Below are positions 3,604 to 14,124 of a DNA stretch of 14,904 bases, piece by piece (position 1 is the stretch's first letter; each line of letters opens with the position of its first letter). Below the pieces are notes generated by a model that was given only the letters and a program-made list of their open reading frames with translations, was not told where the DNA came from and made no database searches. The stretch comes from Candidatus Fermentibacterota bacterium (GTDB taxonomy: Bacteria; JAFGKV01): contig JAUXFG010000095.1 in the NCBI GenBank assembly GCA_030620115.1, positions 1-14,904 on the forward strand, given 5' to 3'. The translations under genes were made by a program, and so were the position numbers.

Positions 3604-3835
3604 TGAAGAACACGTGCAGTGGAATATGCCGACACGTCATTCGAATGCCAATCGGATTCACGAGAAAGGCGATGTATTACTGGGACACAGAGTTGGCATT
3701 TTTTATTCGTCACCCGAATAGGGAGAATAGTCCATGTCCCGGTTCCGCAGTCCCATGCCATGCCCAGGTCCTCCGAGAAGGATACGCAGCCGCAGAAATC
3801 CACTTGTTTGATCTCCAGGAACCACCTTACTTCCC
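3604..3835. other. Intergenic stretch between divergent genes, no gene seen
   Basis: Together with the repeat at 3836-4022 and the spacer 4023-4189, this makes a ~590-base gap between the minus-strand polysaccharide gene and the plus-strand methyltransferase. It contains the candidate promoter at 3623-3651 and a short A/T tract near 3700. Open frames here are either built from the adjacent repeat or lack recognisable domains. A 13-mer, GTGATGGTATTCC, lies at the start of the polysaccharide gene (3585-3597) and recurs at 4086-4098. I found no clear promoter for the methyltransferase in 4023-4189; a TATTAT at 4157-4162 has no matching -35. Confidence 0.5.
3623..3651 (-). promoter_or_regulatory. 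Candidate sigma70-type promoter for the O-antigen ligase/polymerase-type gene
   Basis: On the minus strand a -35 TTGGCA (3651-3646, 5/6 to consensus) is separated by 17 bases from a -10 CATATT (3628-3623, 4/6). The start site would lie near 3616, leaving ~40 bases to ATG 3573. That fits this start better than GTG 3603. Pattern match only. Confidence 0.35.
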
Positions 3836-4022
3836 CTATCCCGGACTTCTCACCGGCCTTCGTCCTGGAATGGCTGAGATGGCATTGCCCGCAAGGCTTG
3901 CGACCGAGGCCGGTCGAAGGCGTATCCTCTGCGATACGCCGAGGGCGACCGACAGAGCGTAACGAAGCAGGCGATGCCATATCCGCCGTTGTAGCAGAAG
4001 GCTGGTGAGAAGTCCGGGCTAG
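3836..4022. repeat. Structured dispersed repeat with terminal inverted repeats (MITE-like), copy A
   Basis: The two ends are inverted repeats of each other. The left 25 bases (3836-3860) contain CCCGGACTTCTCACC and the right 25 (3998-4022) contain GGTGAGAAGTCCGGG, with about two mismatches over the 25 bases. Inside, GGCGTATC at 3919-3926 and GATACGCC at 3933-3940 form a perfect 8-bp stem with a six-base loop, and CGACCG/CGGTCG at 3901-3916 can form another stem. The interior blocks GCAAGGCTTGCGACCGAGG, GGCGTATCCTCTGCGATACG and the GAGCGTAACG region recur in the copies at 13776-13958, so this is a family and not a one-off palindrome. There is no transposase frame; the open frames across it appear to be by-products. 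Size and ends suggest a MITE or REP-like element mobilised in trans (inference). Confidence 0.8.
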
Positions 4023-4189
4023 GACCTGCGAGGACAGGATTGAGCCCAAAGGAAAGGATGGCGACAACATGCGGCAAGAGAATGAGTGATGGTATTCCTG
4101 TGCAGTGAGATGCAGCGAATCTGCAGCCTGATCGGAGTCGGAGATATCAGTCTCCCTATTATCTCAGGTGGACAGCTCAAGACTGACAG

Positions 4190-9065: not shown

Positions 9066-9110
9066 GGGGTTCTCAACCCACTTCCCGGCCCCGGGGAAGA
9101 CAACGGTCGA

Positions 9111-9269
9111 GCAAGGCAGGCAGGTTTTCTGGCTCCCGGATCATCCTAATTCCCGCGCCTTCCCGCCATTCGGCAGTGGCTCCTGCGGGTTTCGTACCCG
9201 GTCACAGCGGCGGCCCCGCGACGGCTTCGCACCGTCTTCCCTTTTACCCGTAAGGGGCACCTGTCTTGC
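9111..9269 (-). ncRNA. Cobalamin (adenosylcobalamin-class) riboswitch aptamer
   Basis: Reading the minus strand, the conserved cobalamin-element blocks appear in order. First is the closing arm GCAAG (9269-9265), which pairs with CTTGC (9115-9111). Then come AGGTGCC, AAGGGAAGACGGTGCGAAGC, GGGGCCGCCGCTGTGACCGG and GCCACTG (9180-9174). These are followed by GGCGGGAAGGCG, TTAGGATGATCCGGGAGCC and the B12 box GAGCCAGAAAACCTGCC (9135-9119), close to the classic AGCCAGGAGACCTGCC. A full set in the right order over ~160 bases is strong evidence. It controls the downstream propeller gene and TonB receptor: B12 binding should favour the terminator at 9065-9035 and shut the operon off. No transcription start could be identified confidently, so readthrough from rpsT is possible. 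Confidence 0.95.
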
Positions 9270-9275
9270 TCTCCT

Positions 9276-9386
9276 GCAACGCGCGATGGCGTTGCTCTTA
9301 CGTGGAGACGGAGTACAACTCCGTGCTCCACCATATGCACGCCGACACGTAATCCCGTACCCCTATCTCGTCAAACACGAGAGGGG
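9276..9386 (-). other. Three consecutive stem-loops between rpsT and the riboswitch
   Basis: The spacer below rpsT holds three hairpins. At 9360-9386 CCCCT-AT-CTCGT pairs with ACGAG-AGGGG around a five-base loop, with a two-base bulge. At 9304-9329 GGAG-ACGGAGT pairs with ACTCCGT-G-CTCC, 11 bp with one bulge and a three-base loop. At 9276-9295 GCAACGC pairs with GCGTTGC, 7 bp with a six-base loop. None is followed by a T tract on the minus strand. They may be the processed 3' end of the rpsT mRNA, or the 5' part of the leader; the third abuts the aptamer. Confidence 0.5.
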
Positions 9387-13719: not shown

Positions 13720-14124
13720 TTAACCCGGACTTCTCACCGGCTTTCGAAGCGAAACGGCTGAGATGGTTCTGAATGCTAGCTCGGACTTCTCGCCGGCTTC
13801 CGTAGCGAGACAGAAGAGATGGTTGTGGCTGCAAGGCTTGCGACCGAGGCTCCCGCAGGCGTATCCTCTGCGATACGTCGAGGAAGCCGATAGAGCGTAA
13901 CGCAGCAGACGGAGCCATATCGGATGTCGCAGCCGAAAGCTGATGAGAAGTCCGGGCTCGGCTTGCGACTGAGGACCCCGGTTCTGTCAGGGCGTAGCCT
14001 GGCTCCGCCGTGGCGACCTGTCCCGGCGAAGCTCGAAGAGCGGAGACGGAAGCCCGAAGGCGTATCCTCTGTCCCGCGTCGGACGCGGGACTGCAGCCGT
14101 AAGTTGGTGAGAAGTTCGGGTTAA
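13720..14124. repeat. Outer copy of the dispersed repeat family, interrupted by an inner copy
   Basis: The outermost ends are inverted: TTAACCCGGACTTCTCACC at 13720-13738 and GGTGAGAAGTTCGGGTTAA at 14106-14124, with one mismatch. The left fragment (13720-13775) carries the family's first ~55 bases (ACTTCTCACCGGCTTTCG...GAGATGG). The right fragment (13959-14124) resumes with GGCTTGCGACTGAGG, the block that follows directly in intact copies, and includes GGCGTATCCTCT at 14059-14070. Between the two sits a complete second copy. The right fragment also holds a hairpin with 9-bp arms (GTCCCGCGT/ACGCGGGAC, 14071-14091), where other copies have the GCGATACG arm. It is longer than copy A because of extra sequence at ~13975-14050. 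Confidence 0.75.
13776..13958. repeat. Inner copy of the dispersed repeat family, inserted in the outer copy
   Basis: At 183 bases it is nearly the same length as copy A (187). Left end CTAGCTCGGACTTCTCGCC (13776-13794) and right end GATGAGAAGTCCGGGCT (13942-13958) are inverted repeats with a few mismatches. The interior matches copy A in order: GCAAGGCTTGCGACCGAGG, GGCGTATCCTCTGCGATACG, ATAGAGCGTAACG and GCCATATCGG. The hairpin GGCGTATC/GATACGTC (13858-13865, 13872-13879) keeps its stem with one G-U pair in place of G-C. Confidence 0.75.

Follow-up and report, generated by a model that had tools for sequence, protein, structure and literature searches.

The Correia/NEMIS elements of Neisseria are small and intergenic, occur in more than 100 copies with TA at their ends, have TIRs of ~24-26 bp and a stable stem-loop transcript, and vary in size, some variants carrying an internal module (PMC2229807, PMC10969869). 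RUP of Streptococcus pneumoniae is a ~107-bp MITE with ~108 copies at TA targets, for which a transposase acting in trans has been proposed (PMC2229807). ERIC/IRU is an intergenic imperfect palindrome with TA at its ends and a TIR listed as 7 bp (PMC2229807). For QMITE2 of Coxiella and Chunjie of Geobacter, the excerpted text of PMC10969869 gives lengths of ~190-235 bp and many truncated, size-varied copies. TA is the target of ISY100 and other IS630/Tc1-mariner elements, which duplicate it on insertion (PMC2170065), and the reference list of that paper includes a title that names a preference of IS630 for CTAG. The pneumococcal elements BOX, RUP, and SPRITE have already been reported to insert into one another (PMC3049150).

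The window analyzed here is a stretch of 14,904 nucleotides from a Candidatus Fermentibacterota bacterium. It contains a repeat that is a MITE of ~183 bp, i.e. a lineage-specific, high-copy, non-autonomous DNA transposon. It represents a previously unseen family of a known kind, which resembles Correia/NEMIS, RUP, and ERIC in size, ends, TA target, copy number, stem-loop folding, and intergenic placement. The likeness to Correia/NEMIS lies in such features; the present MITE belongs to another lineage and differs in having several exchangeable palindromic cassettes and a probably mobile composite. RUP has a matching IS630 element (IS630-Spn1), whereas no IS630-family element whose ends could be compared with the MITE ends was found in this genome. 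ERIC differs in sequence and host. A nested composite, as seen here, is described for neither QMITE2 nor Chunjie in the excerpted text of PMC10969869. Duplication of a target TA is shared with IS630/Tc1-mariner elements, and the CTAG preference is near the YTAR context found here; unlike those elements, the MITE encodes no protein, and no cognate transposase was found.

The genome searched was a metagenome assembly of 4.10 Mb in 296 contigs. The inverted ends of the MITE are TA-RCCCGGACTTCTCACCGGC, and the terminal sequence with its TA can also be written TA-RCCCGGACTTCTCACC. When the whole genome was searched with up to two mismatches, the 16-base end motif CGGACTTCTCACCGGC occurred 348 times as against 6 for a reversed-pattern control, from which we deduced at least ~170 copies in the genome; the number rises if degenerate right ends are included. 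Length variants among 94 extracted end pairs spanned ~50 to 290 bp. The commonest length was 183 bp with both flanking dinucleotides included (20/94), and short palindromic derivatives of 51-56 bp were also present. The ends are conserved across copies and form TIRs of ~27 bp; in copy A, a single un-nested copy within the window (Table 1), the arms measure 27 nt and are 93% complementary. No transposase ORF lies inside the MITE. Mechanical ORF calling placed 68 of the 69 well-formed copies between genes, without strong bias in orientation relative to the upstream gene (30 same, 33 opposite); relative to the downstream gene, 38 had the same and 23 the opposite orientation. Copy A was recovered by the repeat finder at 3835-4023. 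It lies (3836-4022) between a gene for a TPR protein on the minus strand and a methyltransferase gene on the plus strand, a divergent arrangement that makes this a likely promoter region. In a BLAST search of 41 genomes, copy A matched only its own; the 40 others included two of the same taxonomic family. Viral contigs, plasmids, and phages gave no match. The single, non-nested copies that the first-pass annotation had proposed to seek in related strains were abundant in the own genome but were not found in the 40 other genomes, including the two of the same family. Elsewhere in the window, a cobalamin riboswitch was detected at 9102-9279 on the minus strand (113.6 bits), followed downstream by genes for a secreted C-terminal-sorting protein and a TonB-dependent receptor.

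The nested arrangement at 13721-14123 is real: a complete inner copy at 13777-13959 interrupts an outer MITE copy after the first ~55 bases of the latter. The first-pass annotation had described an outer copy that breaks after ~55 bases and resumes at the block expected next, with a complete 183-base copy bounded by its own inverted ends in between. This description was borne out, and its coordinates proved correct to 1-2 bases. The left arm is present in the sequence at 13721-13776, the outer copy restarts at G13960 with GGCTTGCGAC and ends on T14121, and excision of the insert restores the block order; the 183 bases of the inner copy count both flanking dinucleotides. The repeat finder paired the inverted ends of the outer copy (13720-13746 with 14098-14124) as well as those of the inner copy given in Table 1. 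The target duplication at the inner insertion, for which the annotation had also advised a check, was half kept, the left TA being present but TC standing in place of TA on the right.

Table 1. Coordinates of the MITE copies and their parts in the window
Feature	Position	Strand	Remarks
Copy A, single un-nested MITE copy	3839..4019	+	flanked by TA at 3837-3838 and 4020-4021; neighboring genes divergent
Left TA, target-site duplication of outer copy	13721..13722	.	TTAA...TTAA at both sides
Outer MITE copy, left part	13723..13776	+	left TIR and subfamily arm ending ...GGTTCTGAATGC; element starts at A13723
TA left of inner copy, left target-site duplication	13777..13778	.	
Inner complete MITE copy	13779..13957	+	TIRs 13778-13802 and 13934-13958; 96% to solo C241 (L044)
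TC in place of expected second TA	13958..13959	.	identical TC at 6/6 right junctions
Outer MITE copy, right part	13960..14121	+	GGCTTGCGAC..., extra palindromic modules, right TIR 14098-14121
19-bp palindromic cassette TCCCGCGTCGGACGCGGGA within outer copy	14073..14091 (+/- 1-2 bases)	.	
Right TA, target-site duplication of outer copy	14122..14123	.	

A query with the whole nest showed that the outer left part, the inner copy, and the start of the outer right part were contiguous at C90 (96%), C17 (95%), C86 (88%), and C10 (85%). The left junction was found on seven contigs (C10, C17, C86, C90, C137, C239, and C263) and the right junction on six (C90, C99, C263, C10, C17, and C86), with both on five contigs, and the DNA flanking the nest differed at each locus. 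Because other contigs carry this nest between unrelated flanks, the composite may already have been what entered this locus, i.e. it may have arrived ready-made at 13721-14123. The nesting had been taken as direct evidence that the element moved as a unit; this holds for the insertion of an intact unit, but the nest itself may have been formed elsewhere.

Independent hits at each locus in an insertion hotspot of the outer subfamily would agree with the tree of whole elements, in which the six inner copies did not form one clade. The inner copies of C263, C17, and C90 grouped with solo C241 (97/96), and the interiors of C10, C86, and C99 were placed elsewhere in the same subfamily. Three observations nevertheless make such a hotspot unlikely. 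The inner left end reads TCTCG, with a derived G, at 7/7 left junctions, whereas the family has TCTCA and G was seen in 3/194 other ends (Fisher p 4e-10, in a count whose eighth case, a GAATG context unrelated to the nest, was scored as negative). TC replaces TA at every right junction. Finally, no un-nested copy with the exact inferred target GAATGYTAGGCTTGCG was found, nor one with GAATGYTAGG, and the required TA was present in none of the 100 listed of 117 matches. From the derived states common to both junctions we deduced a single nesting event followed by spread of the composite rather than repeated hotspot hits. The ~400-bp composite has thus in all probability reached several loci by moving as a single unit, as judged from these sequence comparisons. 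The scattered interiors of C10, C86, and C99 fit exchange between copies. C137 and C239 resemble internal deletion derivatives, and C99 has the right junction alone with a foreign left end.

At the site of the inner insertion, the sequence of intact outer-type copies is GAATGCGAGG (also written GAATGCGAGGCTTGCG) or GAATGCAAGG. As the exact target is absent from intact copies, the inner insertion needs a prior change that created TA and a later change of TA to TC. The simplest account is that one change made the TA before insertion and that the right TA became TC afterward, before the composite spread. The C90 composite (L040 ~1490-1505) adjoins the right end of another copy as GGTGAGAAATGCGGG-TCA-GCCCGGAC, with a single TCA between the two, which suggests that the TA beside an older copy was the insertion target.

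Paired MITE ends read NTA-RCCCGGAC...GTCCGGGY-TAN. TA was present at the left end in 47 and at the right end in 45 of 60 paired copies, and on both sides in 37. In these 37 copies the base before TA was C/T in 31 and the base after it G/A in 35. Agreement between their left and right flanks at position -1 was that of chance (16 versus 15.1 expected), position +2 showed a weak excess (22 versus 16.5 expected, p 0.036), and no convincing direct repeat was seen at other flanking positions. Because the left and right flanks are not clearly matched beyond TA, we take TA alone to be duplicated, within a YTAR context. Two other target types were considered and rejected. A 4-bp YTAR duplication of the IS5/IS701 type does not agree with the bases flanking TA, which were not clearly matched beyond chance. 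A TTAA target (piggyBac/IS1380) was excluded by the flank statistics, the TTAA of the outer copy being TA in a palindromic context. Another nest, which is independent of the first and occupies a different position in its outer copy, was found at C45:20808-21212 (L068). Here, intact copies read GGGCGTAGCCTGG, and the interrupted copy reads GGGCG-TA-[MITE]-TA-GCCTGG, a clean TA duplication; written out with the ends of the insert, intact GGGCGTAGCCTGGCTCC stands against GGGCG-TA-GCCCGG...CCGGGG-TA-GCCTGG.

A profile search of the genome (296 contigs) yielded no IS630-type DDE_3 transposase (PF13358). Matches were obtained for PF01797 (Y1_Tnp, 4), PF01609 (DDE_Tnp_1, 8), NF033545 (4, weak), and PF07592 (ISAzo13-type, 2), and in this fragmented assembly paired MITE ends surrounded none of the genes in these four groups. 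The two ISAzo13-type genes, the sole DDE_3/IS630-related transposases found, were without flanking MITE ends. Each of them (L191 749-2556, L192 722-2445) is preceded by a similar ORF of 253-254 aa that abuts it or shares a few bases with it; the two-gene arrangement is conserved. Because no transposase lay between paired ends, the mover was deduced from the target duplication alone. A putative cut-and-paste transposase of the IS630/Tc1-mariner-like kind, supplied in trans, would move the MITE into TA (YTAR) and duplicate the TA. The cognate transposase may be lost, plasmid-borne, or encoded in the unassembled part.

The four Y1_Tnp genes and the existence of the 51-56-bp palindromic derivatives would also suit a repeat of the REP/BIME type, moved by a Y1 (RAYT-like) transposase and not by a DDE enzyme. 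Y1 enzymes, however, produce no target duplication, and the C45 nest has a TA duplication. In addition, a TA accompanies both of the inverted ends of complete elements, and no Y1 gene was flanked by paired MITE ends. We therefore regard the REP/BIME reading as quite unlikely and retain a putative DDE-type mover that would insert the MITE at TA.

Slippage, i.e. a tandem or partial duplication in place, would leave two homologous copies in the same orientation, as are present here. The inner copy, however, was 96.2% identical to solo C241:8202 (L044) and 79.7% to its outer copy, and the outer copy minus the insert was 92-93.5% identical to solos of another subfamily over 185 aligned bases. Alignment of the outer copy after removal of the insert, as the first-pass annotation had advised, restored a normal copy. 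Because inner and outer copies belong to different subfamilies and each is closer to solos elsewhere, the second copy arose by insertion and not by slippage. The inner copy, moreover, has both ends, and the same nest occurs at unlinked loci, which makes slippage very improbable. A fusion of two repeat copies by metagenome assembly, conceivable with 296 contigs and several copies at contig ends, is just as improbable, the same junctions being repeated at several loci in the interior of contigs, where the substitutions are independent and the flanks unrelated.

As a whole, we consider it very probable that a TA-inserting MITE with a putative IS630/Tc1-mariner-like mover underwent nesting, spread as a composite, and was later reshaped. 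Sequence comparison shows that one MITE copy inserted into a copy belonging to another subfamily. The composite, which kept the outer ends as its boundaries, then moved as one piece to several loci, as the junctions and derived bases shared at unrelated flanks indicate. Deletions and inter-copy exchange would subsequently have reshaped C137, C239, and C99, as their alignment suggests.

The MITE forms a near-full-length imperfect hairpin. Copy A folds into such a hairpin with -114.9 kcal/mol (z -10.1). In the consensus, changes occurred on both sides in 14/52 pairs, and the fold (alignment A1, 24 copies) reached -54.9 on the better strand versus -28.0 on the other. The forward strand gave the better fold in 63 of 69 copies, the better-folding strand having G-U where the other has A-C pairs. 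This strand asymmetry hints that a transcript from one of the strands may be under selection; derived changes to G-U and to A-C numbered only 15 versus 6 in the pairs common to both strand models.

Within the MITE, palindromes of a smaller order were found. The 19-bp palindrome TCCCGCGTCNGACGCGGGA occurred 155 times in the genome (control, 0) and lay inside the MITE in 47 of 53 cases among the fetched loci, including all 8 loci that were retrieved with TCCCGCGTCNGACGCGGGA as query and had flanks long enough for a judgment; it is thus nearly confined to the MITE. Exactly 7 native bases give way to it at three slots (consensus 95-101, 130-136, and 157-163), and it also takes the place of other spans that begin or end at the same slot points; slot 1 holds a different palindrome, TCCGCCAGCTGGCGGA, in some copies. 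Examples are the cassette of the outer copy in Table 1, L166 1587, and L177 1478. A three-level palindrome system may be envisaged, albeit tentatively and with the odds against it, in which 7-nt slots are swapped for 19-bp or 16-bp (near-)perfect palindromes and a putative process moves the cassettes as the composites spread. Copying on a hairpin template would be one candidate for such a process, and a mobile unit of very small size another.

The MITE burst was sizeable and lineage-specific, amounting to an estimated 1% or so of the genome, and took place in a lineage of which few relatives have been sequenced. The evidence for nesting and for onward movement of the nest is unusually clear and internal to one genome. 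Nested copies act as built-in empty sites, from which the target, the boundaries, and the relative age of the MITE can be read without comparison strains. That a nested composite keeps moving explains how larger mosaics can arise from small bacterial repeats.
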